Positions 8,301-49,706 of a stretch of 64,000 bases of DNA are shown piece after piece. The notes under the pieces are model-generated. The model searched no databases and was not told the origin of the DNA. It saw only the letters and a program-made list of their open reading frames with translations. Origin of the DNA: Prosthecobacter algae (lineage in GTDB: Bacteria; Verrucomicrobiota; Verrucomicrobiia; Verrucomicrobiales; Verrucomicrobiaceae). The DNA is taken from positions 124,001 to 188,000 of the forward strand of contig NZ_BAABIA010000003.1 of the NCBI RefSeq assembly GCF_039542385.1, read 5' to 3'. Position 1 is the stretch's first letter, and every line of letters starts with the position of its first letter. Position numbers and translations under genes: made by a program.

Positions 8301-11300
8301 TTTGAAGGCAATGTCACCATTCGTCGTGCCTTTTTGAAAATTACCAATAGCAACGCTCTGGGTAAAACCTTGCCACCCGCAGCAGAAGGCGAACCTGCCC
8401 CCACCAAGCTGGTGGATATCTCTACAGCGCGCAGACCCACGCTGATCTTGGATGGCAGCGCTGGAGACATCACCCTTGCTCCGACGATCCTTTTCACCAC
8501 CAGCAGCGACGGTCCGGCGGGGGCCATTCTCAATCAGGCTGGCAACAACGTCATCCAGGGCAGCATTGATCTGACCAATGGCGGTGGCGGCAACACCCGC
8601 ATCCTGGTCGCTGGCGACACTCTTACCTTGGCTGGCCCAGTGCGCTCTGCAGCCGCAGCCACAAGCACACGCGGTCTGTTGCTGGATGGTGTTGGCTCTG
8701 GCTTTGTGACGGGCATCCTCAGCAACGGCGGCCCATTTGCCCTCACCGTACAGAAACTCGGCACAGGCACCTGGGTGCTGGATGCCGCAAACACCTATAC
8801 AGGCAACACCACGGTGACGGCAGGCACGCTGAAAATCGGCGCAAACGGCAGCTTGGCCAACAGCCCTAACATTGATCTGGCCACGGAAGGCGTGCTGGAT
8901 GTCACCGATATTCCTGGAGGCTTAGCCCTCGCAGCCAACCAATCTTTGCGCGGAACCGGCACCCTCCAGGGCTCACTCACCTTGGGAAGCAATGCCTTCC
9001 TTAATCCAGGCTCTGGCGCAGTTGCGGGCTCAGTCCGCATCACCCAAAACCTGACCCTCCAGGGCGGCACCTTCCAGGTCGCCATCACGCCGCCGCCTGC
9101 CGAAGGGGCCCCCTTTAATGATGCAGTCTCCGTCGGTGGAGATCTCGTGATCGCCAGCCCGAGCAGCATCGAACTCGGCTCCACGGGTGTCCTGCTGAAC
9201 GGGAGCTACCGCCTAATCAATTACACAGGCAGCCTAACTGGAGATGCCGCAAATCTGACCCTCATCAATCCCACTCGCTACATCACTGCACTGGATTTCA
9301 GCACCCCAGGGGTTGTCCAATTGAATGTCGGCGGCACCGCAGGTAACCTTGTCTGGTCACGCAATGGCACGACCAATGTCTGGGACCGCACAACCCCCGG
9401 CATCTGGAATGCCGGAACGGAACTGTTTTACCAATCCGATGCCGTCACCTTTGATGACAGCAGCACCAATCCCAATGTCACCCTGACAGGCGTGCTCACC
9501 CCTTCCTCGGTCGTGGTCTCCGCGACGCAAAATTATGTCTTCGGCGGCACTGGATCCATCGGAGGCTTCACCGGCCTAACCAAAAGCGGCACCGGAAGCC
9601 TGACTCTGAACACCGCCCACAGCTTCACCGGCAAGGTGAAGATCACCGCAGGATCCATCATCCTGGGAACAGGAGGCCGACTGAACGGCACCCGCTGGAT
9701 TGAGGTGGATGAGGGAGCGCTGCTGGATGCGCAGGCCGTGGTGGCCGGCATCACCTTTGGTGGCACCGTAGAATCCCGCATCATCAGCGGCCGAGGAACA
9801 CTGAATGGCAGCTACATCATCAATGGCCTGGCTGGCATTCATCCCGGCACCTCCTCCCTGGAGGGCGATATCAGCACCGCTGGAGATGGAATCGGTATCC
9901 TGAACTTTGGTGGCAATCTCACCCTGGGAGCCGCAGCACTGCCAGGCTTCCCGCGCGTCACGCTGCGTCTGGCCGGGCCGACAGGTCAGGTGGCCAACCC
10001 GCTGGATACGCCTAGCTTGGCCACCTTTGGCAGCACAGTGCCCACCCAGCATGATCATCTGGCCATCGCCGGGATCCTCGCCCTGGATGCAGGCAGCACG
10101 ATCCGGATCGAACTGGCAGAAGGCTACACCCCGGCCCTGGGCGATGTGTTTAATCTCGCCAACTGGAGCAGCCTCAACACCGATGCGGATGCCAATGGCA
10201 CCGGCTTCAATCCCCTTCTCCTCACGGACCTAGAACTGCCAGCCCTGCCTGTGGGCCTGTATTGGAACCGCAGCCTCTTTGTGACCGACGGCCTGCTCTT
10301 CATCAGCCCCGAGCCCCCTGTGGTGGGAGACATCCAGTTCACCCCCGCAGCCACGGTGAACCCAGGCACGGAGATCACGGCAAGCGCGACGGTGACGGGT
10401 CTGGAGCCCTACACTTACCAGTGGAACTTCAACAACACACCCATCCCAAATGCGACAGGTGCCACGCGCACCTTCACCGCCAGCGAGGCAGCCCAGGGCA
10501 GCTATACCGTCACCGTCACCAACCCTGCAGGCTTCACCACCAGCGTTCCGGCGGTCCTGACAGTCAATGACCCGGTGACGTTCGCCGACACCCCTGACAA
10601 TGTCACCCTGAATCCAGGAGCCGATGCGGTCTTCACCGTTCAGGCCACCGGCACGGGGCCCTTCACCTATCAGTGGCGGAAAAACGGCACTCTGATTCCC
10701 GATGAAACAGAGGACACTCTCTCGGTGCTTTCGGTCACTGAAGAGAACCAGGGCGACTATCAGGTGGCCGTGACCAACGTCGTCGGCACACGCCTAAGTG
10801 ATCCCGCCACACTTTTGGTTAACGATCCCGTGACCTTCACCATTCCCCCAGCCCCGCAGGGTGCTCTGGTGGGCGGCAGCGCCACCTTCAGCGTGCAGGT
10901 AGCGGGCACAGGCCCCTTCAGCTACCGCTGGCGGAAAAACGGCACCGACCTCCCAGGTGAGGCCGCATCCCTGGCAACCTTCACATTGAGCAATCTCGCA
11001 CTCAGCGATGAAGGGGCCTACTCCGTGCGGGTGACCAACATCGTCGGCACCACCATCAGTGAACCTGCCGCCCTGGTGGTGGCCGGAGACACGCCGAAAA
11101 TCATCAGCCTCACGCCCCACCAACTGCGCAGCGTGGGGACAAACGTGGTTCTCCAGGTCCAGGCCGTCGGCCAGCCGCCGCTGACTTACCAGTGGTATCT
11201 TGGCTCGGCCAAGGTGGCCGGAGGCACCGCTGCCCAGCTCAGTCTGAACAACGCCCAGCTTAAAAACGCTGGCACCTACCGCGTGGATGTCAGCTCCGGC

Positions 11301-24053: not shown

Positions 24054-26792
24054 TCACCCCACTGCTTCGGCGCAGCGGCCGCAGAGGGTTGGGTGGGCGG
24101 GGTGGGTGCCGACGTCGGGGAGGAGTTTCCAGCAGCGGGCGCATTTGGGGTTGGAGCAGACTTCCACACTTGCGGTTAGGTCGGTGCCTTGGGAGATCTT
24201 CAGGTCGCTGAGGATGAAGAATTCCTGGAGGGTGGCGAGGTCACCGAAGACGGAGTGGTCGAAGCCTTTTTCGGGGAGGGTCAGGGAGACGGTGGCTTCG
24301 AGGTTGGAGCCGATCTTCTTCTCCTGGCGGGCCTTTTCGATGGCCTGCTGGATCACCGCACGGGCCTGCAGGAGCTGGTCCACGGCGGTGGCGGCATCGC
24401 TGGGGGCGAAGGCCGGGTTGGGCTGCGGGAAGACTTCCATGTGCAGGCTGTCTGCGTGGCCCAGATACTCCCAGGCTTCATCGGCGGTGAAGGCCAGGAT
24501 GGGGGCCAGGAGACGGCAGAGGGTCTCGGTGATCTCACGGATGGTGGCCTGGGTGGCACGGCGGCGCGGGCTGTTGGCCGCATCGCAGTACATCCGGTCC
24601 TTGGTGATATCAATGTAGAGGGAGCTGAGGTCGCCCGTGATGAACTGGTTCACCAGGGTGAAGACCTTGCGGAAGTCATAGGCCGCATAGGCATCCACAC
24701 AGTCTTTGGTGAGAGTGTGGAGGCGTTCGAGGATCCAGCGGTCAATGAGGGTGAAATCGGCGGCGGTCGGCGCGAAGTCCTTGGGCTCATCGTGAAGGTT
24801 GCCTAACAAGACGCGTAATGTGTTGCGGATGCGGCGGTAGTTTTCGCTATTCTGCTTGAAGAGGTCTTCGGAGAAAGGCACTTCGTTCTGGTAGTCCACG
24901 CTGGCGACCCAGAGACGCACCATGTCGGCACCGTAGGTGTTGTAGTAGTGGTCGGCCGTCATGGGCTTGGCGCTCTTGCCCGCAGCGCCCTGGTCGCTCT
25001 TGCTGATCTTCTTACCGCTGGTGTCCACGACGAAACCGTGGGTGATGACGCTCTTATAAGGAGCCGCATTGCGGGCGACGATGCTCATCATGAGGCTGCT
25101 CTGGAACCAGCCGCGATGCTGGTCGGTGGCCTCGATGTACATGTCGGCAGGAGCGTGGAGTTCGGGGTGCTGGTCCAGCACGGAGACGTGGCTGCAGCCG
25201 GAGTCAATCCAGACGTCCAGAGTGTCGTTGCCACGCTTCGTATCCGCAGGCAGGCCGACGGCCTCCGCCCACCAGGCGTCATCTTTTTCAAACCAAAGGT
25301 TGGTGCCTTGTTTGGCCACGATGTCGGCCACCTTGCCGATGATGGCGGTGTCCATGATGATGGTGCCATCGGCCTGATAAAAGACAGGCAGCGGCACGCC
25401 CCAGGTACGCTGGCGGCTGATGCACCAGTCTGGGCGGCTTTCCACGGTTCCGTAGATGCGGTTGCGGCCCCAGGCAGGCAGCCAGGCGACCTTGTCAATC
25501 TCCGCCAAAGCGCGGACGCGGATGTCATCGATCTTGATGAAGAACTGCTCAACGGCACGGAAGATGATCGGCGTCTTGGAGCGCCAGCAGTGCGGGTACT
25601 GGTGAACATACTTCTCGTTACCCAGCAGCGCGCCTTTCTCTTCCAGGATGGCGATGATGCCTTCATTGCTCTGGAAGACGTGCTTGCCGACGAACTCAGG
25701 CAGACCGCACTCGGCGGTGTATTTGCCATCGCCATCCACGGGGGAAAGGATTTCCAGGCCATGCTCGCGCCCGGCCTGATAGTCATCCGCACCGTGGCCG
25801 GGGGCGATGTGAACCGCGCCAGTACCGGTGTCATCCGTCACGAAGAGGGTATTGATGACCTTCGACGTGCGAGGCAGGAAGGGATGCTGGGCTTCCGAGC
25901 CGGTGAGGTCCTTACCCTTCAATTTTGTGACTGGCTGGGAGGCATCCAGCTTGAAACCAGTGCTGGCCGAAAAGGCTTCGATGCGAGAGGTGGCGATGGT
26001 GAGGCGCTCGGTACGACCGCTCTCATGAACAAAGGTCCCGTCGGTGTATTCGAACTCTGGATGAAGCGCGATGGCAAGGTTGGCCGGGAGGGTCCAGGGC
26101 GTTGTGGTCCAGATGACCAAGGCCGAGCCATTGGCCAGGGCAAACTTCACGAACACCGCCGGGCTGACTTTCTCCTTGTACTCCACCTCAGCCTCCGCGA
26201 GCGCGGTCTGGGCGCCGTAGCTCCAGAGGACGGGGCGCTTCATGCGATAGACGAGGTTTTGCTCCACGGCCTTGCCAAAGGTGCGCAGGATGCCGGATTC
26301 GTAAACGGGATCGAGGGTGAGGTAAGGGTTCTCCCAGTCGCCAAAGACGCCCAGGCGCTTGAAGCTGTTGCGTTGGATGTCGATGTATTTGCGGGCTTCG
26401 GCCTCGGAACGCTGGCGCACTTCCACCGGGGTCAGGCCAGCGGCCTGTTTGACGACCTTGAACTCGATGGGCAGACCGTGGCAATCCCAGCCAGGAACGA
26501 AGGGGGCGTGGAAACCGGCCATCGTCTTGGACTTCACGATGAGGTCCTTGAGGATCTTGTTCAGCGCGGTGCCCATGTGCACGTCGCCATTGGCGAAGGG
26601 AGGGCCGTCATGCAGGATGAAGGTGGGCTTCCCTTTGCTCTGGGCCTGGATACGCTGGTAGAGCTTGCCTTCCTGCCACTTGGCCAGGCGCTGCGGTTCC
26701 CGGGCGACGAGATCCGCCTTCATCGGGAAGTCGGTCTTCGGCAGGAGGACGGTGTCTTTGTAGTTCTTAGCAGGGGCAGGCTCGGCGCTCAT
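24054..26792 (-). CDS. ileS: Isoleucyl-tRNA synthetase
   Basis: A 912-residue class I synthetase of normal bacterial length. The HIGH motif appears as HMGT at 72-75 within GDVHMGTALNKIL. The editing (CP1) domain carries the WTTTPWTLP segment, and the KMSKS loop is present as KISKS at 595-599. The C-terminal zinc finger has cysteines at 879, 884, 887, 904 and 907. It charges tRNA-Ile with isoleucine and edits misactivated valine. A 400-base G/C-rich leader with hairpin potential precedes it. The stop is about 40 bases from the convergent terminator of the SGNH gene. Zinc-finger type suggests the common bacterial IleRS1. Confidence 0.98.
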   Translation of the reverse strand: MSAEPAPAKNYKDTVLLPKTDFPMKADLVAREPQRLAKWQEGKLYQRIQAQSKGKPTFILHDGPPFANGDVHMGTALNKILKDLIVKSKTMAGFHAPFVPGWDCHGLPIEFKVVKQAAGLTPVEVRQRSEAEARKYIDIQRNSFKRLGVFGDWENPYLTLDPVYESGILRTFGKAVEQNLVYRMKRPVLWSYGAQTALAEAEVEYKEKVSPAVFVKFALANGSALVIWTTTPWTLPANLAIALHPEFEYTDGTFVHESGRTERLTIATSRIEAFSASTGFKLDASQPVTKLKGKDLTGSEAQHPFLPRTSKVINTLFVTDDTGTGAVHIAPGHGADDYQAGREHGLEILSPVDGDGKYTAECGLPEFVGKHVFQSNEGIIAILEEKGALLGNEKYVHQYPHCWRSKTPIIFRAVEQFFIKIDDIRVRALAEIDKVAWLPAWGRNRIYGTVESRPDWCISRQRTWGVPLPVFYQADGTIIMDTAIIGKVADIVAKQGTNLWFEKDDAWWAEAVGLPADTKRGNDTLDVWIDSGCSHVSVLDQHPELHAPADMYIEATDQHRGWFQSSLMMSIVARNAAPYKSVITHGFVVDTSGKKISKSDQGAAGKSAKPMTADHYYNTYGADMVRLWVASVDYQNEVPFSEDLFKQNSENYRRIRNTLRVLLGNLHDEPKDFAPTAADFTLIDRWILERLHTLTKDCVDAYAAYDFRKVFTLVNQFITGDLSSLYIDITKDRMYCDAANSPRRRATQATIREITETLCRLLAPILAFTADEAWEYLGHADSLHMEVFPQPNPAFAPSDAATAVDQLLQARAVIQQAIEKARQEKKIGSNLEATVSLTLPEKGFDHSVFGDLATLQEFFILSDLKISQGTDLTASVEVCSNPKCARCWKLLPDVGTHPAHPTLCGRCAEAVG

Positions 26793-35721: not shown

Positions 35722-36885
35722 TCAGGCCGCTTCGGCCTGGGGCTGAACAAGGCCCTCAAGCGGCTCCTTCAAGAGCTCGCGCTGCCAGCTCATGAGAGCC
35801 TCGAGGCCGGTGCTTTCGGCGACGACTTCTTCCAGGGTGCTGCGTGAACCGAGGAGGCTGCTTTCGATGTCGAGGCTTTCGGCGACTTTGTCACGCAGGC
35901 TGCACAGGCGATCGATCTGATCCCGCTGGGCATCGCTGAGGCGTGCTTTGGCTTTCTTCACCCGTTGTGGCCAGGAAGCCTGGCCGGCACGGAAGACATC
36001 GGCGATGAGATCGTGAAATTCCTTTTTCCAACGGGGACGCCAGCCGCCAGGAGGATTCATGACTCCGCCGGACTCGAAGGTTTCGGCGTAGATGACCATC
36101 TGCTTATTCGACATGACCCGGTAGCAGGGGATGTCCCGCTCCATGGCGATGCCTTCGCGCCATTCCCACATGCTTTTGAGGATGGCGAGGCCTTTGGGGT
36201 GGAGGCGGCCACTGCCCTGGACGCGCCAAGGGTCTTCCTTTGGGGCCATGCTACGGGCGGCGACATCCACCTGGAGATCGCGGCAGCTTTCCTCGAACCA
36301 AGCCTCGCGGCCTTTTTCGCGGAGAAGCTTCATCAGGTAGTCGGCCAGAGGGATGAGGTAACGGACATCATCCACGGCGTAAGAAAGCATGTGCTCCGGG
36401 AGCGGGCGGCGGCTCCAATCAGCCTTTTGGGAGGCTTTGGAAAGCTGAAGGCCGAACATGGAATGAATAAGCGCAGCGAGGCCGAACTGGCGGAAACCGA
36501 CGAGGCGGGCAGCGATTTGGGTATCGCGGACGACGCGAGGTGCCCAGCCATAGGTGCGGCGGAGCATGGTGAGATCGTAATCGGAGCCGTGGAACCAGAG
36601 TTCATGCCGGTCCAGCAGGGCGAGAAGGCCAGAGACATCCTCAATGGCGAGGGGATCCACCAGAGCAAAGCGGCCAGCGCAGGCGACCTGGAGGAGGCAG
36701 AGCTTTTCGTGATAATGGTGGAGGGAATCCGCCTCTGTATCCAGGCAGCAGCGGTTTTCACCGGTGGCCTGCATGTGAGCTTCGGTTTCCTGAAGCCATT
36801 GCTGCAAATGCTCCGGCGTATCAATGAAGACATAGTCACCCGGGACGATCGCCGGGGGGATCAGGGGTGGAACGACGTCACTCAT
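35722..36885 (-). CDS. rnd: Ribonuclease D
   Basis: A 387-residue 3'-5' exoribonuclease of the DEDDy type. The catalytic residues are visible in CLDTEADS (Asp49, Glu51), FHGSDYDL (Asp102) and SYAVDDVRYL (Tyr169, Asp173). C-terminal HRDC-like helices follow (about 215-380). It trims the 3' ends of tRNA precursors and other small RNAs. Its ATG overlaps the rho stop by 4 bases (36882-36885), forming the end of a coaE-rho-rnd operon that mixes termination and RNA processing. Confidence 0.95.
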   Translation of the reverse strand: MSDVVPPLIPPAIVPGDYVFIDTPEHLQQWLQETEAHMQATGENRCCLDTEADSLHHYHEKLCLLQVACAGRFALVDPLAIEDVSGLLALLDRHELWFHGSDYDLTMLRRTYGWAPRVVRDTQIAARLVGFRQFGLAALIHSMFGLQLSKASQKADWSRRPLPEHMLSYAVDDVRYLIPLADYLMKLLREKGREAWFEESCRDLQVDVAARSMAPKEDPWRVQGSGRLHPKGLAILKSMWEWREGIAMERDIPCYRVMSNKQMVIYAETFESGGVMNPPGGWRPRWKKEFHDLIADVFRAGQASWPQRVKKAKARLSDAQRDQIDRLCSLRDKVAESLDIESSLLGSRSTLEEVVAESTGLEALMSWQRELLKEPLEGLVQPQAEAA

Positions 36886-38366
36886 TTCAATCCCGTGAGC
36901 AGAATTTCAGCATTGTTGCTGGTGCGGTTGATGTTGCGGATCAACATTTCCAGAGCTTCCACCGCAGGCACCTGAGCTAGCTGCTTGCGGATGGCGGAGA
37001 CACGTTTGAATTCATCCGGGTGGTAGAGGAGGTCATCCCGACGGGTGCCTGACTTCAGCACGTGCAGGGCGGGGAAGATGCGGCGCTCGGAGATTTCGCG
37101 GTCCAGGGTGGCCTCCATGTTGCCGGTGCCTTTGAACTCCTCAAAGATGAGGTCATCCATGCGGTTCTCGGTCTCGATGAGGGCCGTGGCGATGATGGTG
37201 AGGCTGCCGCCTTCTTCGACATTGCGGGCTGCGCCAAAGAATTTCTTCGGCTTGATCATGGCCTTCGAATCCATACCTCCAGACATGGTGCGAGCACCTT
37301 TGCCACCGCCGCTCTGGCTGTTGTAGCCACGGGCCAGACGGGTGAGGGAATCTAGCAGAATGACGACATCTTTGCCAGCTTCCACGAGACGGCAGGCGCG
37401 TTCGCGAACGAGCTCGGCGAGCTGGCTGTGGCGCTTGGGGCTTTCATCAAAGGTGGAGCTATAGATTTCGCAGCCGCTGACGGACTCTTCGAAATCGGTC
37501 ACTTCCTCCGGACGCTCATCCAGAAGAAGGATGATCAGGGAGATTTCCTTGTGATTGTGGACGATGGATTTGGCAATGTCCTTCAGCAGGACGGTCTTGC
37601 CGGAACGGGGTGAGGCATTGATGAGGCCGCGCTGGCCTTTGCCAAGGGGGGCCACCAGATCCATGATGCGGACGGATGCCGGGCAGGGCTTGGCCATCTC
37701 CAGGATGATCCGCTGGTTGGGGAACATGGCGGTCAGCTTGTCGAAATGCACGGGTGGCTGCCAGGTATCAATGGAGACGCCATCCACTTCGGTGATGCGA
37801 TCAATCGCGAGGTATTTGTCCCGGTCCTTGGGTGCGCGGGCAAAACCGGTGATGCGATTGCCTGGGCGGAGATTGAACTTACGAACCAGGAAGAGGGGGA
37901 TAAAGACATCCTCTGGCAGCGGGGCGAAGCTGTACTTGGGATAGCGGATGAGGCCGAAGTTATCAGCACCGATCTCCAGAATGCCGTCTACTTTGACGCG
38001 GGTGCGATGATCAGCCATCCAGGCTAGCAGATCGTAAATGAGCTGGTGCTTGGACCGGCTGGCATTCATCCGGAAGTTGACGCTTTCGGCGAGGGTCTGG
38101 ATTTCGGCGAGGGAAGACTCCTGAAGATCGTTCAGGGAAATCTCTACCGGGAAAGGAGCTTCGGCGGTAGGGCCAAAAGATTTGTCCTGGGCGGGCTCCT
38201 CTGGAGTCCGGCCTTCAGCTCCCCTGGCAGCAGCCGGGGATTCAGCAGCCTCCGTGACAGCCGGGGGTGTCTGGGCAGCAGGTGTTTCGGGGACTTCCGC
38301 AGATGGCGCGTCAGTGGCGGGGGATAGGACCTCGGTGGAAGTCTCGGGGGAGTCGGTTGGATTCAT
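36882..38366 (-). CDS. rho: Transcription termination factor Rho
   Basis: A 494-residue Rho from the ATG at 38366. The Rho N-terminal and cold-shock RNA-binding domains run from about 80 to 190 ([20 protein letters not shown]). The ATPase core has a Walker A ASPRSGKT at 251-258, [11 protein letters not shown] and the Q-loop region [13 protein letters not shown]. The usual Walker A of Rho is PPKAGKT, so PRSGKT is a mild variant. Residues 1-75 are an extra Pro/Ala/Glu/Ser-rich extension, as in other Rho proteins of high-GC bacteria. It terminates untranslated transcripts. It overlaps coaE and rnd by 4 bases each, so all three are translationally coupled. Confidence 0.97.
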
Positions 38367-38977
38367 GCTTGCCAATGCTGTCTTGCCAGTGTCAGCACTT
38401 GAGCCTCGAGAGCACTGCGGTCACCATCATTCCAGATGACCACATTCGCTCTCTCAACTTTGGCTTCGATGGGCCACTGAGCCCTCAACATCTTGTCGAT
38501 TATTGATTCGTCGAGACCTCGACGTTCCATCAACCGCCTTTTCTGAACTTCCGGGCTAGCAGCCACGACGATGATCAGATCCGCTGATACTGTGCCTCCA
38601 ATCTCATAGTGCAGGGGCACCTCCGCAAGGAAAAGATTTGCCCCGGCTGCCGACTGGGCGGCCCGGGCCGATTCCAGCTCCGCCAGAACACCGGGGTGCA
38701 GCATCTTCTCAAGAACCTGCCTGCGAGCCTCATTGGCAAAGACCTCGGTGCGCAGCCACTCGCGATCCGCGACTTCCCTGCCCTCTCTGTTCACGACGGA
38801 GGCTTCTCCGAGCTGAGTTTTGAGTTTTACCAGGATTTCAGGCTGATCCAGAAGGGCCTGGGCGCTGCGATCAGCCGAAAAAATCAGAGCTTTATCTTTC
38901 AGAAGGTGGCCCGCGAGCAAGTCGGTGACCGAACTTTTGCCGCAGCCGATGCCACCCGTCACAATCCAGGAATTCAT
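38363..38977 (-). CDS. coaE: Dephospho-CoA kinase
   Basis: A 204-residue P-loop kinase from the ATG at 38977. Walker A GGIGCGKS lies at 8-15 and FSADRSAQALL provides the aspartate equivalent of the CoaE DADK motif. The FLAEVPLHYE segment is the conserved FLDIPLLYE region, and the RRGLDE...RAQWPIEAKVERA lid closes the active site. It phosphorylates the 3' hydroxyl of dephospho-CoA, the last step of CoA synthesis. The stop overlaps the rho ATG by 4 bases. The upstream gap holds the terminator of the pilus operon. Confidence 0.95.
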   Translation of the reverse strand: MNSWIVTGGIGCGKSSVTDLLAGHLLKDKALIFSADRSAQALLDQPEILVKLKTQLGEASVVNREGREVADREWLRTEVFANEARRQVLEKMLHPGVLAELESARAAQSAAGANLFLAEVPLHYEIGGTVSADLIIVVAASPEVQKRRLMERRGLDESIIDKMLRAQWPIEAKVERANVVIWNDGDRSALEAQVLTLARQHWQA

Positions 38978-39001
38978 AGTCGCAGTGCCTATAAAAGCAG
39001 A

Positions 39002-39030
39002 CAGGCAGGCGGTCAATGACCACCTGCCTG
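39002..39030 (-). terminator. Terminator of the secretin operon
   Basis: CAGGCAGG (39002-39009) pairs with CCTGCCTG (39023-39030), and an inner GGT/ACC extends the stem past one mismatch. Read on the minus strand it follows the secretin stop and is followed by TGTCTGCTTTTA. The T-run starts several bases late, so confidence is moderate. Confidence 0.65.
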
Positions 39031-39057
39031 CCGCAGAATGAGTTTAGAAGCTCAGAA

Positions 39058-41574
39058 TTAGTTTCCGCTCACCGCAGGAAGCAGACCACTGGAAGGACCT
39101 GCATCCGTCGAAGCCTGGGAGCCCTGCATGTTTGGATTGATGGCCTGGCCAGCAGGGTCAATCAGCTTGGCCGTCACGAAGATCATGAGGTTACGCTTGA
39201 AGTGGTCTTCCACTTGGGACTTGAAGAGACGGCCCACGAAAGGCAGGTCACCCAGCACAGGGATCTTGTCTTCGACGTCCTGGACGTCTTCACGGATCAG
39301 GCCGCCGAGAACCACCGTCTGGCCATCCCAGATCGTGACTGCGGTCTGCACCTTACGGATGGAGAACACAGGCTGATTGATGATGTTCGGGGTAAGTTCC
39401 ACACGGGTCGAAGGCAGGAAGCCGATGATGTTGCCGAAGACGTCAAGGATGGGGTTGCCACCAGCGACGCTGTAGATCGGGCTGCCGTAGTTCACGAAGC
39501 CATCGAATTCAGTCACTTCAGGAGCCAAGTTGAGGTCAATGGTGTAACCATCGGCACCAACGGTCGGATCCACTTCCATGCGCACACCCACAGGCTTCAT
39601 TTCGAAGGCGGTTGGCGTGGTTGGAGTCACCGGGATGGCGCTGGAACCACCGCCATTGCCACCGTTGGTTGCACCGACGTTGGTCGGGATCTGCGGTGGA
39701 TCGAACTCCGTCGGATAGATGAATTCGCGAATCACTTCGATGGTAGCACGCTGGCCAGCTTTGGTGGTCACGCTCGGGGCGCTCATGAGGTCAACGCCTT
39801 TGCGCTGGGACATGGCACGAATGACGAGAGCGAACTGAGGGTCAGTAAGGACACCTGCGACGCTGAACACGCCAGGAGCTTCAGGCACAGCGGAAAGACC
39901 GTTGATCTGGGCGTCGATGGCATTGCCGCTGATGGCGTTGCTGCCAGTGCGGAGGCTGCGAGTGACTGGGGAGATGGAACCCGTGGCGATCATGTTGGCG
40001 ATGTTGCCAGGATAACCGATGGTTGAGGAATCGAGGCCGGAGTTGCCGTCGGAACCACCGCCGCCCTGAACGGCATTGCCTTCACCAATGGCACCCAGGA
40101 GCCAGTCGAAGCCGAGTTCATCGGTGTTCTTCTGGGAGACTTCGACAAACTTCGAAGTGATGTAGATCTGCTTCGGTCCCTGGGAACGGTTGGCGTCCAC
40201 AAAGGCTTCGACGAGATCCAAGTTAGGCTGGGTGTTCTTGACGATGAGCTGGGAAGTCACCGGGTTGAAGACAGCGGAAGCGCCTTCTGGGAACTGAATG
40301 CCCTGGGACTTCAGGATGTCGATGGCGGTTGCACGCTGGATGAGGTTGGAAGCCGGAGCTGCACCACCACCACCTGCTGCGAATGGATCGGCAGATGCAG
40401 CAGGTGCTGCGGCTGCACCACCACTGCCACCGAGGCTGAGGAAGTCTGGATTCACCCGGTAGATGCGAGTGTATTGCTCAGCGGTGGTTTCAGAAACAGG
40501 AACGATGAGAACCGCGAAAGGCTCCACCTTGTATTTCATGCCAGCGAGTTCGGTGACATAACGAAGGGCTTCGACCATCGGCACGTCCTTGAGGTCAAGG
40601 CTGATGGAGGCGGTGACAGGAGCGTCGCCAGCCTTGAGGATGATGTTCACACCCTTCTTGGCTGGATCGGACTCATTGACGTCCAAGTCACGGCTCTTCA
40701 CGCGAAGGAACTCCACGGCTTCTTCAATGCTAGCACCAGAGAACTGGACCTGCGGGAAGACGATTTCCTGCATCTTGCGAGTCAGGTAAACGGTGGGCTC
40801 GATGCCGCCAGTAGCGACAGGGTCGATGACCAGGCCACGAACCGGGGGTTTATATTCCCAGGCTTCGTTGACCATGTTCAGCATGCGGGCACGCTGATGA
40901 TCGCGGGCGGTGTCGAAGTATTCGCCGCGCTTTTGTTCGACCTTCTCCATGCCACGACGGGCAGCGGAGTTGTAAGGATCGATACGAACAACGTCTTCGA
41001 ACTGGAGAAGAGCCTTATCGTAGTCACCGATTTCAAGGGAGCTGTTGGCAAGCAGGAGACCTTTTTCCACCTTGCTGACGTTTTCGACGTGCTGAGGCGT
41101 GAGGGCTGGCGGCCAGCGGTCTGGATCAGACAAATGCTTGGCGAAGACTTTGGCACCTTTATGACCAGGAACCGCGAGCTGGGCTTCGTCGATCAACTTC
41201 TGGGCTGCGACATAGTCACCGATTTTGGCCTTTTCACGGGCGACGACGATGGCGCAATCAGCAAACTTGAGGTTGGCGAGGTCGCGCCAATCCTGAATGA
41301 AAGGAGCGTTTGGAAGCTGATCAAGGATGTCTTTGGCCGAGCGATACTGGGCAAGGGCCGCCTCATATTCTCCTTTGGCAAAAAGCTCATCACCCTTCTC
41401 CATGGCCTGACGTGCATCTTCGATTCTGGCCGCACGACGGGCGATTTCCCGTTCAGCGATACCAGGGACATTTGCACCACCCTCACCTGCGAAGGCGGGC
41501 ATGGCTACCATGGGTGCTGCGAGAGCGACCATCAGGGCGATTTGTTTTTTCTTCATTCGGGAGGGATGCATCAT
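39058..41574 (-). CDS. Secretin, PilQ/Amuc_1098-like outer-membrane protein
   Basis: An 838-residue secretin from the ATG at 41574; ATGs at 41571 and 41556 are alternatives. A signal peptide ends near AFAGEGG (about 30). Residues about 35-270 form TPR-like helical repeats (MEKGDELFAKGEYEAALAQY). N0/N1-type secretin domains follow, and then the conserved C-terminal ring region with VLGGLIREDVQ and VPVLGDLPFVGRLF-type motifs (about residues 745-775). A glycine/alanine-rich linker separates N domains. It should form the outer-membrane channel of a type IV pilus-like machine. It is the last gene of a five-gene unit ordered as Amuc_1102 to Amuc_1098 in Akkermansia. Confidence 0.94.
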   Translation of the reverse strand: MMHPSRMKKKQIALMVALAAPMVAMPAFAGEGGANVPGIAEREIARRAARIEDARQAMEKGDELFAKGEYEAALAQYRSAKDILDQLPNAPFIQDWRDLANLKFADCAIVVAREKAKIGDYVAAQKLIDEAQLAVPGHKGAKVFAKHLSDPDRWPPALTPQHVENVSKVEKGLLLANSSLEIGDYDKALLQFEDVVRIDPYNSAARRGMEKVEQKRGEYFDTARDHQRARMLNMVNEAWEYKPPVRGLVIDPVATGGIEPTVYLTRKMQEIVFPQVQFSGASIEEAVEFLRVKSRDLDVNESDPAKKGVNIILKAGDAPVTASISLDLKDVPMVEALRYVTELAGMKYKVEPFAVLIVPVSETTAEQYTRIYRVNPDFLSLGGSGGAAAAPAASADPFAAGGGGAAPASNLIQRATAIDILKSQGIQFPEGASAVFNPVTSQLIVKNTQPNLDLVEAFVDANRSQGPKQIYITSKFVEVSQKNTDELGFDWLLGAIGEGNAVQGGGGSDGNSGLDSSTIGYPGNIANMIATGSISPVTRSLRTGSNAISGNAIDAQINGLSAVPEAPGVFSVAGVLTDPQFALVIRAMSQRKGVDLMSAPSVTTKAGQRATIEVIREFIYPTEFDPPQIPTNVGATNGGNGGGSSAIPVTPTTPTAFEMKPVGVRMEVDPTVGADGYTIDLNLAPEVTEFDGFVNYGSPIYSVAGGNPILDVFGNIIGFLPSTRVELTPNIINQPVFSIRKVQTAVTIWDGQTVVLGGLIREDVQDVEDKIPVLGDLPFVGRLFKSQVEDHFKRNLMIFVTAKLIDPAGQAINPNMQGSQASTDAGPSSGLLPAVSGN

Positions 41575-41671
41575 AGAAGGGTGCGGTTTGTCAAAATTAA
41601 CAATGAGCCGAGGTGTTTAGCAGGAATTGCTTCTGTCTGGCGAGATGTTTTTTGGTTGGGTTGAAAAAAAG

Positions 41672-42625
41672 TTAAGGTTTGGTCACAGTGATGGATTCGC
41701 CGCCGTCAACAGGCTGGATCACCGCGCTGGTCTCTTCGATTTCGAGCAAGCGGTAGGTGCTGCCAATGCCTGGAATCTGGAAGGTGTCGCCCTTTTTCAC
41801 CGTCCGTGTCGGACGTTCACCGAGGATGAATTCGAATTCGGCCTCGTATTCGGCAAGGTTGGTTTCGCTGCCACGGACCAGGGTGAATTCCTTGTTAGAA
41901 GATTTGTCGAGCATGACCAGCTCTGACACATCTTTTTCGCCCACGGCAGGATCCGCCACCTTTTTGGGAGTGAAAGCTTTGACCTGGAAACGGACCACAC
42001 CTTTATCGAAACCAAACTCTTCACCCGGGGAAACGAACTTGCTCACTTTCGGCTCAGGCGTCAGACGCTGAACCTGGAAGGGTGGCGAGCTACTGTTGAG
42101 CTTGATGACGTAATCAAAGGTGATGCGGCGCTTGAGGACCAGCTTGTCCGTGAAAGGAGGGTGGCTTTTGTCGTCGCGAGGATTGGTCTTTTTGTTGAAC
42201 TCTTCCAGGTTGGAGAAGCCATCCGAGTCAGCATCCAAGTCACCCACGTTAGGGGAGAGGATGTTGGGCAGATCGTTAGAGACGAGGTAGGAGTTCGTCA
42301 TCGGCGGGCGAAGCTGCGGATCTTCAAGCTGAAGATCGTAAAGCTGGTCGCCCTTTTTCACCAGAAGCACTGATTTGTTCAGCGGGACGGGCTTGCCTTT
42401 GATGACGGGAGAGATCCAAGTGGTCTTTTCCGTCAGAAGCTTGAGCGTCTGATTGATCAATGCCGTGGGTGGCTGGCCGGGGTCGTTTTTAGAACTGCCG
42501 GGGCGGCGCACCAAGCGCTCGCTGAAGCTCTGACTGGACCAGACAAGGTAACCCGCAACGCCCAGGGCGATCACCGCAGTGATGCCCAAGAGGACTTTTT
42601 CATAATTCCCATTCCTGTTCTGCAT
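41672..42625 (-). CDS. Amuc_1099-like membrane-anchored periplasmic protein
   Basis: A 317-residue protein with one N-terminal membrane helix (about 12-30) and a large periplasmic part. A thrombospondin-type-3-like calcium loop, DLDADSDGFSNLEE, lies at 129-142. The C-terminal half is beta-rich. Its position between the Amuc_1100-like and secretin genes is exactly that of Amuc_1099 in Akkermansia; the assignment rests on synteny and topology, as no enzyme motif is present. It is likely to link the inner-membrane platform with the secretin, comparable to PilP, which is inference. A 97-base gap precedes the secretin gene. Confidence 0.75.
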   Translation of the reverse strand: MQNRNGNYEKVLLGITAVIALGVAGYLVWSSQSFSERLVRRPGSSKNDPGQPPTALINQTLKLLTEKTTWISPVIKGKPVPLNKSVLLVKKGDQLYDLQLEDPQLRPPMTNSYLVSNDLPNILSPNVGDLDADSDGFSNLEEFNKKTNPRDDKSHPPFTDKLVLKRRITFDYVIKLNSSSPPFQVQRLTPEPKVSKFVSPGEEFGFDKGVVRFQVKAFTPKKVADPAVGEKDVSELVMLDKSSNKEFTLVRGSETNLAEYEAEFEFILGERPTRTVKKGDTFQIPGIGSTYRLLEIEETSAVIQPVDGGESITVTKP

Positions 42626-42666
42626 ATGGCTAATTCAAAGTTGTGTCGTGATGACGGTTGATGTCT

Positions 42667-43668
42667 TCACCGGGTGCCAGTGCTGGCAGTTTGAGTATTC
42701 AAGAAATACACCAGATCGATTTCCATGAAGACCCGCAGCTTCTCATTACCGAGAACAGCGATGGCGTCTTCCACGGCTGGAACAGCGGCGGCAGGAGGAG
42801 CTTCCTTGCCATCACCTGCTGGCGGTGCCAGAGGAGCCGGAGCATCTGGATTGATCGTTGGCGGAGGCAGGATGTTAGTTTCAGCACGGAGAGGCCCGAC
42901 CTGGCGTTCATTTTCGATGCGAAGAAGACGCACGACAGTGAAGTAAGGCATCTCCGAAGGGCTGGCGAGCTTGCTCATCAACATCTGAAGAGCCGCCTGG
43001 TCCAGCGTGAGCATGGCCCGTACCTGACGGCGCTCGGACAGCTTGGGGGCAGCGGCCGTACCAGGACGGGCCTGAGGGCCTTTTTTGGCGGCACCTGTGG
43101 CGGGTTTGGCAGCCTCAGCTTTTTCAGCATCCAACTCCGAACGCTCAATCATCTCCACCTGCTTGACGCCGACAGAGGCGAAGGCAGCGACGATCTGATC
43201 CACCGCATCCAAGTAACCGGAGAGGTCGGTCGCGATCTCGTTGGATTTCGGCAGTTCGCTTGTATAGCGATCGAAAGCCAAATTGTACACAGCAGGGAGG
43301 CCCATGCCGCGCTCAGCAGCCAGCTTGCGAGAATCCGCAATCTTGGTCTTCAGCTTGGCCTGAAACTCGGTGTCCGTGGTCGGCTTGGCCTGGGTCTCCG
43401 CCTGCATGGTGTTGAGCACCAGGGTAAGCTTGCTGGAGATATCGGTGAACTCCTTCACCTTGGCTTGCTTGATCTCCAGATTTTCGGGAGTAGGAGCCAA
43501 GACGGCGCTTTTCAGCGAGGCGAGGCTGTTATTGACCGTGTCAAACTGCTCCAGGGTGGTGCTGTAGCTTGAGTATGCGGAGAAGAGCATGTAGCCCAGA
43601 CCTGCCGCGCCGGCTGCCGTGATGCCAAGAATGGCAGCAGGCAATTTGTTTTGTTGGATCCAACTCAT
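42667..43668 (-). CDS. Amuc_1100-like pilus-associated protein
   Basis: A 333-residue protein opening MSWIQQNKLPAAILG, then one membrane helix (about 9-30) and a coiled-coil region (LEQFDTVNNSLASLKSAV), followed by a globular periplasmic domain. Topology, length and N-terminal sequence resemble Amuc_1100 of Akkermansia muciniphila, a protein known for immune and metabolic effects on the host. A PilO-like role in an alignment complex fits its place after the PilM-PilN-like gene. A low-complexity Pro/Ala insertion lies near residues 275-300. Its start overlaps the upstream stop by one base (TGATG). No host effect can be inferred here. Confidence 0.82.
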   Translation of the reverse strand: MSWIQQNKLPAAILGITAAGAAGLGYMLFSAYSSYSTTLEQFDTVNNSLASLKSAVLAPTPENLEIKQAKVKEFTDISSKLTLVLNTMQAETQAKPTTDTEFQAKLKTKIADSRKLAAERGMGLPAVYNLAFDRYTSELPKSNEIATDLSGYLDAVDQIVAAFASVGVKQVEMIERSELDAEKAEAAKPATGAAKKGPQARPGTAAAPKLSERRQVRAMLTLDQAALQMLMSKLASPSEMPYFTVVRLLRIENERQVGPLRAETNILPPPTINPDAPAPLAPPAGDGKEAPPAAAVPAVEDAIAVLGNEKLRVFMEIDLVYFLNTQTASTGTR

Positions 43669-45398
43669 CAGTTTGTGAATTTGATGGGCTGCTGAAGGGG
43701 CAGCTTGATGTTAAATTTGTAGGCGTAGCGGTCTTCTTCGACACCACTTTCGGCGCTCACGTAATTGGCGCGTTTTTCTTCGAACTTCTCTGCGGAGAAG
43801 TAGCTCATCTTGGCCAGGGCACTGGCGAAGCGATAGACAACCTGCTCACCCTCGTCGTTTTTACGATACAGGCCCTGGAGGCGGAGTTCGTAAACGGGCT
43901 TGCCAGGGACAGGCTTGATGTTGGAATCCACCGCGCTCTCTTCCTGCCCAAAGAGGGCCGGGGTGATGGGCTTGCCATCTTTCAGAGGCTCCACGACGGT
44001 GAGCCAGATGAGGTCGTTGTCGAAGGCGTTGTTGATGGCGTTGAGCATGCGCACCCAGTAGGCGCGGTCGCCAACAGCCTCGGCCAAGGGGGTGACCAGG
44101 GAGATGGACTGGGCGAGCAGGGCGTCCTGCTGCTTGATCTGATTGGTCAGCGCCATGAGCCGATTATTTTCCTGCTGCATGGTGGAGAGCTGCTCCTGGG
44201 TGACGCGCTCGGCATTCTGGAAATAAAGCATGCCAGCACCGAGGGCGGACCAGAGGCAGACGCCGGCGATGACGAGGGCAGGAGCGCGACGCTTGGCATC
44301 GCGGGCATTGGCCACGACTTCCGGCACCAGTTCAATTTCCGATGGGCAGCCACCAGCAGAGCGAAGGCCGAGGCCGACGAGCTCTGAAAGGAAAGGGGCG
44401 TCTGCGGCAGCCGCTTCGGCATTGACGCCGCGGTCCACCTGCACACCGCGCAGAGGATTGAAAATTTCCACCGGCAGCTTGAGCTTTTCCTCAAGGAACA
44501 GGGTCATGTTGCCTAGGAGAGCACCACCCCCGCAGACGAAGATGCGCTTCGGCTGGGAACCGCCCTGCTGGGTGCGGTAGTAATTGATGGTGCGCATGAT
44601 CTCACCGTGGAGACGGGTGGCGGCATTGCGGATGACCTTGGAAAGGGCGGCAATAGCAGGATCGGAATGTTCCTCGACCGCGCCGCCCTGGGCGACGAAA
44701 CCAACGGCGACTTTCTGCTGTTCGGCCTCGCCGAAGCTGATGCTGAATTCCTTGGCAATCGCGTTGGTGATGGCAGCGCCACCGACGAGAACGTTGCGGG
44801 TGAAGAAGCGGCCGTCTTCGACAAAAACAAGGTTGGTGGAGCGGGCACCGAGATCAATGATCACGGCAGGCTCATCCACATCCGGGTAGCTGTAGCGGAA
44901 GGCATTGAAGAGGGCAAGCGGCGCAAGGTCAACGCAGTTGGTCTTCAAACCAGCCTCAGCAACGGTGTCATTGGTCTCATTGAGGGAATCCGATTTGATG
45001 GCGACGATGATCACCTCGGTTTCACCCAATTCGGAGACGACTTCGTAGTCCCAGATGACCTCATTGATCGGGAAAGGTACGTTTTGGCGGGCCTCAAACT
45101 CGACGATCTGGTCCATGCGGTCGCCCTGGACAGGCGGCAGCTTGACGAAGCGCGAGAAGACAGTGTGGCCTGCGACGGCGTAGTTGACGGGGTTGCCTTT
45201 AAGCTTGAGACGGGAGGCAATTTCTTGCACGCCCACCTTGAGCTGGGGGATTCTCGAGGCGTCCACAGTTGGATCACCGCTCATGTCGAGAAACTCGTAC
45301 TTTTTCAGCACAAGATCGCCCCCGGATTTGCTAAAAATGGCACCTGACAATCTCTGAGAGCCGAGATTCAGGACCGCTATGCTTTTGCTGTCTGCCAT
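43668..45398 (-). CDS. pilM: PilM-like ATPase fused to a PilN-like domain (Amuc_1101-like)
   Basis: A 576-residue protein from the ATG at 45398. Residues 1 to about 350 are an actin-like PilM domain: SIAVLNLGSQRLSGAIF phosphate loop, PPVQGDRMDQIVEFEARQ, VIIDLGARSTNLVFVEDG and FVCGGGALLGNM near 285-295. A membrane helix (about 371-391) and a coiled-coil with a ferredoxin-like domain then follow, the layout of PilN. In classical pilus loci PilM and PilN are separate and bind through the PilN N-terminus; here they appear fused. The gene overlaps its downstream neighbour by one base and its homologue in Akkermansia is Amuc_1101. Confidence 0.9.
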   Translation of the reverse strand: MADSKSIAVLNLGSQRLSGAIFSKSGGDLVLKKYEFLDMSGDPTVDASRIPQLKVGVQEIASRLKLKGNPVNYAVAGHTVFSRFVKLPPVQGDRMDQIVEFEARQNVPFPINEVIWDYEVVSELGETEVIIVAIKSDSLNETNDTVAEAGLKTNCVDLAPLALFNAFRYSYPDVDEPAVIIDLGARSTNLVFVEDGRFFTRNVLVGGAAITNAIAKEFSISFGEAEQQKVAVGFVAQGGAVEEHSDPAIAALSKVIRNAATRLHGEIMRTINYYRTQQGGSQPKRIFVCGGGALLGNMTLFLEEKLKLPVEIFNPLRGVQVDRGVNAEAAAADAPFLSELVGLGLRSAGGCPSEIELVPEVVANARDAKRRAPALVIAGVCLWSALGAGMLYFQNAERVTQEQLSTMQQENNRLMALTNQIKQQDALLAQSISLVTPLAEAVGDRAYWVRMLNAINNAFDNDLIWLTVVEPLKDGKPITPALFGQEESAVDSNIKPVPGKPVYELRLQGLYRKNDEGEQVVYRFASALAKMSYFSAEKFEEKRANYVSAESGVEEDRYAYKFNIKLPLQQPIKFTN

Positions 45399-45450
45399 GC
45401 TGTTTGTTTCTAAAACGTGCCGTATGAGTGAGGAAAATGGCCGAGGCAGA

Positions 45451-46059
45451 TTACTGCTTCTTGGCACTCACATCGTAGTCGCCCCAGAGGATGCCAAAGG
45501 GCGTTTCCGTCTTGGAGAGCATCACACCATCATTGATGGAAAGGTTGTCGGTTTTTTCCCACCAAGCAGTGCCGGTGACGCTGGAGTCTCCACCGACGCG
45601 CTGACCGGAGACGAGGATTTCATATCCCCAAGCCCGGATATCGGCGGAGGTAAAGCCGTCTTTCTGAAGCAGACGGCGCAGCGTGGCTGGCGTGACATAA
45701 GCCAAGGCATGGCAATCTTGCCCTTCAGGAATGTCCACATAGTTGAAGGTGCCTTTCACCACTTCATTTTTTCCATCTTTGGTCTGGGCATTGAGACCGA
45801 TGTAAAAACTCACGGTCATGGACTCCAGGCTGGCATTGCGACCCGCCGAGGAAGGCAACTTGATCTTAAAAGGCATGTCCACTTCCAGCCAATCCTTTGG
45901 ACGCCAGCGCTTTTCACCCACATTGCCCGCAGAGAACTGGGGTGTCTGGATGGGATTGATCGCAAGCTTGCCGCCATCCACTTTGACGGCTGGAGCCTGA
46001 GCGCTGGCTGCGCTGATACCGAACGCGAGGGTGGCGAGAGCAATGTAGATTTTCATCAT
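45451..46059 (-). CDS. Amuc_1102-like secreted protein
   Basis: A 202-residue protein from the ATG at 46059 (a second ATG follows directly). A signal peptide (MMKIYIALATLAFGISAASA) is followed by a beta-rich domain with IQTPQFSAGN, WLEVDMPFKI and GYEILVSGQRVGG. No catalytic motif is visible. It heads the five-gene operon, 52 bases before the PilM-like gene, and takes the place of Amuc_1102 in Akkermansia; the homologue call rests mainly on that synteny. Its exact role in the pilus complex is not known. Confidence 0.75.
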   Translation of the reverse strand: MMKIYIALATLAFGISAASAQAPAVKVDGGKLAINPIQTPQFSAGNVGEKRWRPKDWLEVDMPFKIKLPSSAGRNASLESMTVSFYIGLNAQTKDGKNEVVKGTFNYVDIPEGQDCHALAYVTPATLRRLLQKDGFTSADIRAWGYEILVSGQRVGGDSSVTGTAWWEKTDNLSINDGVMLSKTETPFGILWGDYDVSAKKQ

Positions 46060-46302: not shown

Positions 46303-47730
46303 TTATTTAGCGGCATTTTTGCCCGCCTGACGACTGCCCGTGCCCTTTGGCTGCTTTTTCAGGCTGTCGCCCAACTCTTCACGGACGGTCGCGGCATAGG
46401 CTTCCAGACGGGCGATCTGGTCTGGGTGGGCTGTGGCGACGTTTTTTGACTCGCCCAGGTCTGCATAGAGGTCATAGAGCTCCGGTGCCTGGACCTTTTC
46501 GGGGCGATATTTGACAGGCTTGCCCCCGGTGGCGGGGGCCTGATCTCCCAGGCTGCGGTAGGTGTGAGGAAAAATGATTTTCCACTGGCCGTCGCCGCTG
46601 GTGAGAGCCTGGAGCTCGTTTTGATGATAATAGAAGGCGTAGAAGTCGTGGGGGTTCTTCGCGCCGGAATCGCCAGTGATGAGGGGGAGGACGTTTTTGC
46701 CATCAATGGGGTGCGGTGGCAGTGCAGCCCCGAGCACGGAGGCCAGGGTGGGCAGGATGTCGAGGGTCATCATCATGGCATCGCTGGTGCTGCCTGCGGG
46801 GATGCGGGCGGGCCAGCGCATGATGCTGGTGACCCGGGTGCCGCCCTCCCAGACGGTGCCTTTGCCCTCACGGAGCAGGCCAGCGGAGCCTGCATGGTCG
46901 CCATAGCTGAGCCATGGGCCATTGTCCGAGGTGAAGATGATCCAGGTATTGTCCTTCAGGCCGTTTTTCTCCAGGGTTTCCATGATCTGGCCCATGGACC
47001 AGTCCACCTCCATCATCACATCGGCATAGAGGCCTTTGCCAGACTTGCCGTTAAACTTTTCACTCACGTAGAGGGGGACGTGGACCATGCTGTGAGCGAG
47101 GTAGAGAAAGAAGGGCTTGGCCTTATGACGCTCAATGAAGCTAACGGCACGCGTGGTGTAATCTGTGGTTAGGCGCGTCTGGTCCTCCGGTGTCACATCG
47201 GCATCCACGATGCGGTCATTTTCATACAGGGGCAGCTTGGGGTAGCTGCCGGGCTTGGCCTCGGGATGAAAGGGCCACATGTCATTGGAGTACGGCAGGC
47301 CGTAGTATTCATCGAAGCCATGACGAGTGGGCAGGAAGGGCGGCAGATGGCCCAGGTGCCATTTGCCGACGGCGGCGGTGGCATAGCCTTTTTGTTTGGC
47401 GACTTCGGCTAGGGTCATTTCCTGGGCAGCCAGGCCGTGGGTGGCCTTGGGCGAGAGGGCGCCGTGGATGCCGATGCGGTTTGGATAACAGCCGGTGAGC
47501 AGGCCTGCGCGGGAGGCGCTGCAGACGGGTTGGGGGACGTGAAAGTTGGTAAACTTACGCCCTTCCTGAGCTAGGCGGTCAATGTTAGGCGTGGGGTAGC
47601 CCTTGGCCCCGAAACAGCCGACATCGGCGTAGCCCATGTCATCCATGAAAATGACCACAACATTGGGCGAGTCTGCCGCCAGCAGCAGGGGGGTGAAACC
47701 GAGGACAAGGGAGACAATAAGGCGAAACAT
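46303..47730 (-). CDS. Secreted sulfatase
   Basis: A 475-residue family S1 sulfatase with a signal peptide of about 18 residues. The metal ligands begin with IFMDDMGYADVG (Asp30, Asp31). The formylglycine site is CSASR at 70-74, a Cys-type motif with alanine in place of the common proline, then AGLLTG. VGKWHLGH and SDNGPWLSYG give the remaining active-site residues. It removes sulfate from sulfated glycans or other esters outside the cytoplasm and needs an anaerobic sulfatase-maturating or FGE enzyme, not seen here. Such enzymes are numerous in Verrucomicrobia and Akkermansia, where they act on mucin or algal sulfates. Confidence 0.95.
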   Translation of the reverse strand: MFRLIVSLVLGFTPLLLAADSPNVVVIFMDDMGYADVGCFGAKGYPTPNIDRLAQEGRKFTNFHVPQPVCSASRAGLLTGCYPNRIGIHGALSPKATHGLAAQEMTLAEVAKQKGYATAAVGKWHLGHLPPFLPTRHGFDEYYGLPYSNDMWPFHPEAKPGSYPKLPLYENDRIVDADVTPEDQTRLTTDYTTRAVSFIERHKAKPFFLYLAHSMVHVPLYVSEKFNGKSGKGLYADVMMEVDWSMGQIMETLEKNGLKDNTWIIFTSDNGPWLSYGDHAGSAGLLREGKGTVWEGGTRVTSIMRWPARIPAGSTSDAMMMTLDILPTLASVLGAALPPHPIDGKNVLPLITGDSGAKNPHDFYAFYYHQNELQALTSGDGQWKIIFPHTYRSLGDQAPATGGKPVKYRPEKVQAPELYDLYADLGESKNVATAHPDQIARLEAYAATVREELGDSLKKQPKGTGSRQAGKNAAK

Positions 47731-48197: not shown

Positions 48198-49706
48198 ATG
48201 AAAACCCGCCTGACCGCCCTTGCCGCCTTCTTTTCCTGCCTGTCCGCCTGGGCGCATCCGGTGCCGGACATCCCGGTGCGGGCCTATTTCACCCAGGAAG
48301 GCAAGTGCACGCTGACGGTGGAGGTGGACCCGCGCTGCTTTACCGCAGACCCGAATGCCGCCCCATCCCTGATGCAGCCCATCCTACCAACCCTGAGCGA
48401 GGAGCGGGTGAAGGAACTGAAGACGAAGGCGCGAGATCTGGTGAAAAAGTACGTGGAGTTTCTTTTTGAGCCTACTGGGCCGGTGCAGCCGGACTTTCAG
48501 TTTGAGTTCACCGGCCATGACCGCGCCCCACTGGACAGTGAAGATGACATCGTGGTGCTGACCGGAACGTGGGACACGCAGGTGCCTGCTGGCAGCAAAG
48601 GGTGGCGCATCCGTGCCACCCAGGACACGCCGCTGGCGGTGGTCTTCCGCAATTACATCGCCGGGGTGGAGCACCCGAAGTTCTCCGTGCTGTTTCCTGG
48701 AGAGACCAGTTTCCCGTTTGATCTGAACGCGCCTGCCCAGCCGCTGCAGCACATCGTCTTTGGCTCCTGCTTGGACCTGACGGAACACCCGATGCTGGAT
48801 CGCACGCTGACGCTGCCGATGGATCTTTTCCTGTTCATGGGCGACAACATCTATGCCGACACTGAGGATATGGCCAAGATGCGGGCCAAGTATGTGGCGC
48901 TGGGCCAGAGCCCCTTTTTCCAGGGGCTGCGGGCCAAGACCCCGGTGCTGGCCACCTGGGATGACCATGACTTTGGGGCCAATGACGGCGGGGCCGACTA
49001 CCCGATGAGGAAGGAATCGCAGAAGGAATTTCTCGACTGGCTGAATGAACCCAGCGGCTCCCCATTGCGGAAGCAGGAAGGCATCTATCAGGCACGCACC
49101 TTTGGCCCAGAAGGCAAGCGCACGCAGGTGATCCTGCTGGACACACGCTACTTTCGCAGCCCGCTGAAGCGTGTGCCGAAGGACCAGGCCACGAACGGTG
49201 GCAGTGCGGTGCCCACGGATGACCTCAGCACCACCGTGCTGGGAGAGGCCCAGTGGGCTTGGCTGAAAGGGGTGCTGGAACAACCGGCGGAACTGCGACT
49301 GATCGTCTCCAGCATCCAATTTGCTGCGGCGGCGAGCGGCAGCGAAAGCTGGGCGAACTTTCCCCATGAACAGCGGCGGCTGGTGAAGCTGATCGCAGAC
49401 AGCAAGGCCCGCGGGGTGCTCTTCCTCAGCGGGGACCGCCACTGGTGCGAGATGTCGGCCCTCACCCAGGCCGTCCCCTACCCTCTCTATGATTTTACGG
49501 CGAGTTCCATGACGCAGGTTCATAAGCGCGGCACCCCCACGCCCAATGCCAACCGCGTGCTGCCCAAGACTTTCCACCAGCCGAATGTGGGCACGCTGGA
49601 CATTGACTGGGCGGTGAGCGACCCCACTCTGAAACTGCGCATTCTGGATGCCGAGGGAGCGACGCAGATCGAGAAAACCTTGCACTTGGGCGAGTTGCAG
49701 CCGTAA
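48198..49706 (+). CDS. Secreted PhoD-like metallophosphatase
   Basis: A 502-residue protein with a signal peptide (MKTRLTALAAFFSCLSAWA). The N-terminal 170 residues are an extra domain. The PhoD-like metallophosphatase domain has FMGDNIYAD (215-217 GDN), TWDDHDFGANDGG (about 254) and SGDRHWCE near 411-415. These supply the Fe/Ca ligands of PhoD-type alkaline phosphatases and phosphodiesterases. It should release phosphate from organic esters in the periplasm or medium. It stands 50 bases upstream of a dehydrogenase on the same strand, which may be cotranscribed by chance. No Pho box was recognised. Confidence 0.92.
   Translation: MKTRLTALAAFFSCLSAWAHPVPDIPVRAYFTQEGKCTLTVEVDPRCFTADPNAAPSLMQPILPTLSEERVKELKTKARDLVKKYVEFLFEPTGPVQPDFQFEFTGHDRAPLDSEDDIVVLTGTWDTQVPAGSKGWRIRATQDTPLAVVFRNYIAGVEHPKFSVLFPGETSFPFDLNAPAQPLQHIVFGSCLDLTEHPMLDRTLTLPMDLFLFMGDNIYADTEDMAKMRAKYVALGQSPFFQGLRAKTPVLATWDDHDFGANDGGADYPMRKESQKEFLDWLNEPSGSPLRKQEGIYQARTFGPEGKRTQVILLDTRYFRSPLKRVPKDQATNGGSAVPTDDLSTTVLGEAQWAWLKGVLEQPAELRLIVSSIQFAAAASGSESWANFPHEQRRLVKLIADSKARGVLFLSGDRHWCEMSALTQAVPYPLYDFTASSMTQVHKRGTPTPNANRVLPKTFHQPNVGTLDIDWAVSDPTLKLRILDAEGATQIEKTLHLGELQP

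Follow-up and report, generated by a model that had tools for sequence, protein, structure and literature searches.

The closest described relative of the genes analysed here is the Amuc_1098-1102 locus of Akkermansia muciniphila, also termed MUL2. The MUL2 locus, with its secretin, coaE, and rho, is syntenic in aquatic Akkermansiaceae and often kept in other families of Verrucomicrobiales (PMC13174399, ISME J 2026). The same study proposes pilus-mediated glycan attachment for MUL2, regards 1099 and 1100 as uncharacterised proteins, and describes a weaker conservation of the locus beyond Verrucomicrobiales. A 2016 paper noted PilQ-like homologues elsewhere in the Verrucomicrobia (PMC4960237), a 2026 review likens the structure of Amuc_1100 to proteins of type IV pili and type II secretion (PMC13119276), and the host effects of Amuc_1100 are known (PMC5332112, PMC10688800). 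The locus considered here, located in a 64,000-nucleotide stretch of the Prosthecobacter algae genome (the window), constitutes a further example of MUL2 from a sister family. The first-pass annotation of this DNA had placed the locus in a non-gut relative and suggested an ancestral role in a pilus or secretion alignment complex; the first is correct, the second is well supported, and both are already published, so that the finding is largely ordinary because the locus has been described as widespread in non-gut relatives. For the pairing with a motor operon, the calcium-loop motif of 1099, the wider distribution, and a second secretin, no earlier report was found in the literature outside most subscription journals.

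Five consecutive ORFs lie on the minus strand of the window (39058-46059), exactly where the first-pass annotation had put a complete Amuc_1098-1102-like locus. Family assignment was based on NCBIfam profiles with curated equivalog cut-offs, all five of which are passed: by the Amuc_1102-like protein (45451-46059; NF042424, 185.5 bits vs a cut-off of 55), the Amuc_1101-like protein (43668-45398; NF045709, 781.5 vs 650), the Amuc_1100-like protein (42667-43668; NF038287, 327.1 vs 180), the Amuc_1099-like protein (41672-42625; NF042425, 293.8 vs 50), and the Amuc_1098-like secretin (39058-41574; NF042912, 1037 vs 750). The gene order is that of A. muciniphila, whose genome (G113) encodes a protein recognisable as the crystallised Amuc_1100; its locus (L038) runs rho-coaE-1098-1099-1100-1101-1102, as does that of the window. 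Best matches to unrelated proteins, the outcome named beforehand as refuting, are excluded because the five cut-offs are passed and sequence alone finds the solved structures of Amuc_1100 (E ~1e-5) and Amuc_1102 (PDB 7dsz, E 2e-13). The five genes are thus confirmed as a genuine and complete copy of the Akkermansia machine.

The two loci are alike in their five families, order, strand, coaE-rho neighbours, and the fold of the 1100 protein, and unlike in that sequence identity is low and the host of the window is presumably not gut-associated. BLASTP identity between the window proteins and those of A. muciniphila amounts to 37% for 1098, 23% for 1099, 37% for 1101, 25% for 1102, and, over approximately half of the protein, 24% for 1100. 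Such values (23-25% for 1099, 1100, and 1102) might be taken to mean that the resemblance is that of generic PilM and PilQ proteins, with nothing specific to Amuc_1099-1102. This reading retains practically no probability and is already refuted: the family-specific cut-offs are passed, fold and gene order match the Amuc locus, and the Amuc_1100 and Amuc_1101 families have one member each both in the window genome (labelled G000 in the comparisons) and in A. muciniphila.

Downstream of the secretin gene, coaE (dephospho-CoA kinase, 38363-39016) and rho (36882-38375), both on the minus strand and taken from the ORF list, are conserved neighbours. Among 80 named loci, found by alignment to the secretin (1098), the five-gene order is intact in 67, while contig ends cut 11 and the remaining two are lone secretin paralogues; coaE adjoins 1098 in most of the named loci, and the order with rho is kept in these as well as in A. 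muciniphila. The expectation that rho, coaE, and ileS all flank the genes holds for the first two only, as the candidate ileS (a 912-aa ORF, 24054-26792) lies ~12 kb from the locus. The description of the host as free-living agrees with the habitats of its relatives (ponds, lakes), and it is on these relatives, rather than on the window genome itself, that it is based. The records that match best are pond and lake MAGs of Verrucomicrobiaceae and Prosthecobacter, together with isolates such as Brevifollis, and point to a genome that is probably akin to Prosthecobacter.

Sequence and family alignments indicate likely starts at 46059 (1102-like, ATG), 45398 (1101-like, the ATG at residue 24 of the longest ORF), 43668 (1100-like, overlapping the 1101-like stop), 42625 (1099-like), and 41574 (1098-like). 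A consensus scan found a terminator-like hairpin on the minus strand 3' of the 1098-like gene (39000-39032; 15 pairs followed by a T-rich tail), which is suggestive of a plausible operon end; terminator-like sites across the scan are fewer than in shuffles. No sigma-70-like promoter was found at the locus with a consensus that is uninformative for Verrucomicrobiota. Upstream of the locus, a sulfatase-like ORF (46303-47730) and a PhoD-like phosphatase-like ORF (48198-49706) were recognized by eye from their translations, and a 2608-aa ORF occupies the plus strand of the window at 5238-13064.

The 1100-like protein comprises an N-terminal transmembrane helix, a coiled coil, and a PilO-type ferredoxin-like periplasmic domain. 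A family profile search retrieves PDB 6kny and 6lad (Amuc_1100) at 1e-40. An AlphaFold model built from 45 relatives (mean pLDDT 84) was compared with known structures in a VIA fold search: Amuc_1100 is matched with Z 22.1-22.7 and an rmsd of 1.9-2.5 A over ~170 residues, followed by Pseudomonas PilO (PDB 2rjz, Z 10.3, rmsd 2.0 A over 91 residues; PDB 5uvr, Z 8.0), while crystal structures of unrelated proteins all score below Z 7. The modelled protein shares the PilO-type fold of the Amuc_1100 crystal structure, and the close match (Z ~22) bears out its earlier designation as an Amuc_1100 homologue. Histone matches to the same protein were discarded, since they fall on a low-complexity stretch rich in Lys, Arg, Ala, and Pro (approximately residues 176-237).

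The 1101-like protein combines a PilM domain of the FtsA/actin fold (TIGR01175 pilM, 163.7 bits vs a cut-off of 133; PF11104 PilM_2, 126 bits; PDB 3jc8, 1.5e-40) with one transmembrane helix (residues 398-416 in the numbering of the longer ORF) and a periplasmic segment in the position of PilN or GspL. The helix and segment are fused to PilM, and the PilN segment gives weak matches to PF05137 in two of ten members. The 1098-like protein, an outer-membrane secretin in the PilQ position, has a signal-peptide-like N-terminus and an N-terminal TPR region; it matches PF00263 Secretin with 113 bits (cut-off 27.5) and TIGR02515 PilQ with 114 bits, under the cut-off of 284. The 1102-like protein (MUL2A family) is probably secreted, judging by its hydrophobic N-terminal signal peptide.

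The N-terminus of the 1099-like protein, MQNRNGNYEKVLLGITAVIALGVAGYLVWSS, has a transmembrane helix and offers no Cys for a lipobox; the protein also has a beta-rich periplasmic region. The alignment of its family reveals a 12-residue loop, DADSDGFSNLEE, of the form DxDxDGxxNxxE (residues 131-142, window 42200-42235), whose acidic positions (D131, D133, D135, and E142) are invariant in 46 of 46 relatives. The bacterial TSP3 repeat is a calcium-binding motif, and TSP3_bac is matched by 33 of the 46 relatives; by sequence, the Amuc_1099 family appears to carry an invariant calcium-loop motif of the EF-hand/TSP3 type. With a transmembrane anchor and no lipobox, the protein corresponds to PilP in position only. 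No PilP match was found by sequence or fold: a search with the predicted model (pLDDT 86) returned no convincing match, as the hits, chiefly small beta-barrel domains, did not exceed Z 5.8, so PilP identity is not claimed. Equivalence of the 1101 segment to PilN and of 1099 to PilP is therefore positional.

Taken as a whole, the locus can be regarded with good confidence as the envelope-spanning part of a machine resembling type IV pili and type II secretion systems, inherited vertically in Verrucomicrobiota. The role in a pilus or secretion alignment complex suggested earlier is supported by the PilM and secretin domains, the PilO fold, and an orphan operon for PilB, PilC, and a prepilin that A. 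muciniphila also has. In such a machine, 1101 (PilM with a PilN/GspL-like segment), 1100 (PilO/GspM-like), and 1099 (membrane-anchored, in the PilP/GspC position) would form an inner-membrane and periplasmic platform docking beneath the 1098 secretin ring, and 1102 might be an exported accessory or filament-associated protein. The PilMNOPQ set of type IVa pili is similar in its PilM domain, PilO fold, secretin, and order M(N)-O-x-Q; it differs in that the window locus has PilM fused to the following segment, an additional 1102, a secretin with a TPR N-terminus, motor genes located elsewhere, and a membrane-anchored 1099 with a calcium-loop motif, no PilP match, and no lipobox Cys.

The GspL-GspM-GspC-GspD set of type II secretion likewise shares features with the locus, and the five proteins might instead serve as platform and pore in a type II secretion-like exporter or a piston uptake device, with a GspM-like 1100, a GspD-like 1098, a short pseudopilus, and no extended pilus. 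A GspL-like 1101, in which a cytoplasmic actin-like domain is fused to a transmembrane and a periplasmic segment, points in this direction, as do the GspC-like membrane anchor of 1099 (PilP is a lipoprotein) and the prepilin of the motor operon, which matches GspG best. The nearest folds, however, are those of pilus proteins (PilO for 1100 and PilM for 1101), both the window genome and A. muciniphila have pairs of the PilT retraction ATPase whereas secretion systems are without PilT, and pili-like structures have been reported in A. muciniphila (PMC4960237, PMC5332112). The exporter or uptake reading is thus possible, though rather unlikely.

For the preferred pilus-like machine, a likely motor is encoded elsewhere in the genome. 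A PilB-PilB-PilC-prepilin operon (G000:C2 ~248-253 kb; L186:3928-9343) is syntenic with that of A. muciniphila and has no adjoining secretin; a PilT pair passing the family cut-off lies at G000:C6 ~436-438 kb, and the genome also holds a prepilin peptidase. A. muciniphila contains only the tandem PilB pair, a PilT pair, one PilC, and two secretins, and neither PilB nor PilC was found there outside the tandem operon. As A. muciniphila lacks any other PilB or PilC, the operon likely drives the 1098-1102 complex, by elimination in that organism and by orthology in the window genome. Here the pairing is drawn from A. muciniphila because the motor genes lie apart from the locus and the genome encodes further sets, with seven secretins and several PilB/GspE-like and PilT ATPases. 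The sampled families f4 and f7, which are without 1100 and 1101, are also without PilC. The operon and the PilT pair would supply assembly and retraction, respectively.

Both genomes also encode a second secretin of the Amuc_1098 family, above the curated cut-off and solitary, without 1099-1102 (L210:6326-8824, G000:C1 ~361 kb; in A. muciniphila L209:4147-6669, G113:C1 ~1.98 Mb). A secretin of this type stands alone in L108 and L109 as well, and is located on the opposite strand beside the main locus in L120 and L128.

Among 388 sampled genomes of the phylum, matches to the Amuc_1101 family (E <= 1e-20) occur in 345 and to the Amuc_1100 family (E <= 1e-3) in 302, so that both reach most of the sampled phylum, in contrast to the narrower conservation described in PMC13174399. 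Far fewer genomes, 36 for Amuc_1101 and 37 for Amuc_1100, reach the curated cut-offs, and almost all of them belong to the same order as the window; membership beyond that order therefore means homology rather than the strict family definition. Gene order is kept in several distant genomes (L044, L045, L046, L048, and L049), with coaE-rho adjoining in one. Genes upstream of the locus in the distant lineage L044, considered as pilus motors, were rejected as unrelated housekeeping genes. Three complete genomes, G042 and G072 (family f4) and G036 (family f7), contain neither 1100 and 1101 nor PilC; those of family f4 are without secretins as well, as would be expected had the entire machine been lost.

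Across 56 genomes, protein distances of 1098, 1099, 1100, and 1101 are correlated with the rho distances (Mantel r 0.93-0.95, p 0.001), which is consistent with vertical descent in Verrucomicrobiota, although rho adjoins the locus and transfer of the whole block would correlate too. The role would predate gut life because the locus is present across the phylum and its divergence tracks rho, in keeping with the ancestral role proposed by the first-pass annotation. Considering the host effects of Amuc_1100 cited above, the locus could alternatively be a host-interaction island, acquired horizontally by or from gut lineages. Its phylum-wide presence, constant chromosomal neighbours, divergence following rho, and the mainly environmental origin of relatives (ponds, lakes, and elsewhere) already disfavour such an island, which is highly improbable.

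The ancestral job of the vertically inherited machine is likely to attach to complex glycans or capture them by means of a filament, which has been proposed for MUL2 of A. muciniphila and its aquatic relatives (PMC13174399). The PilO-type fold, inner-membrane anchor, and conservation of the 1100 protein argue that its first job would be mechanical and not host signalling; judging by distribution and topology, the host effects of Amuc_1100 may be secondary, and its TLR2 effects may arise as a by-product when a PilO-like protein of the periplasm encounters host cells. On a reading of slightly less than even probability, Amuc_1100 would be an internal machine part whose TLR2 activity is incidental. 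This matters because Amuc_1100 is under study as a probiotic effector, whereas across Verrucomicrobiota its homologues belong to the conserved equipment of an envelope machine. The environmental orthologues, at 20-25% identity, provide natural controls for the features behind TLR2 activation by Amuc_1100.
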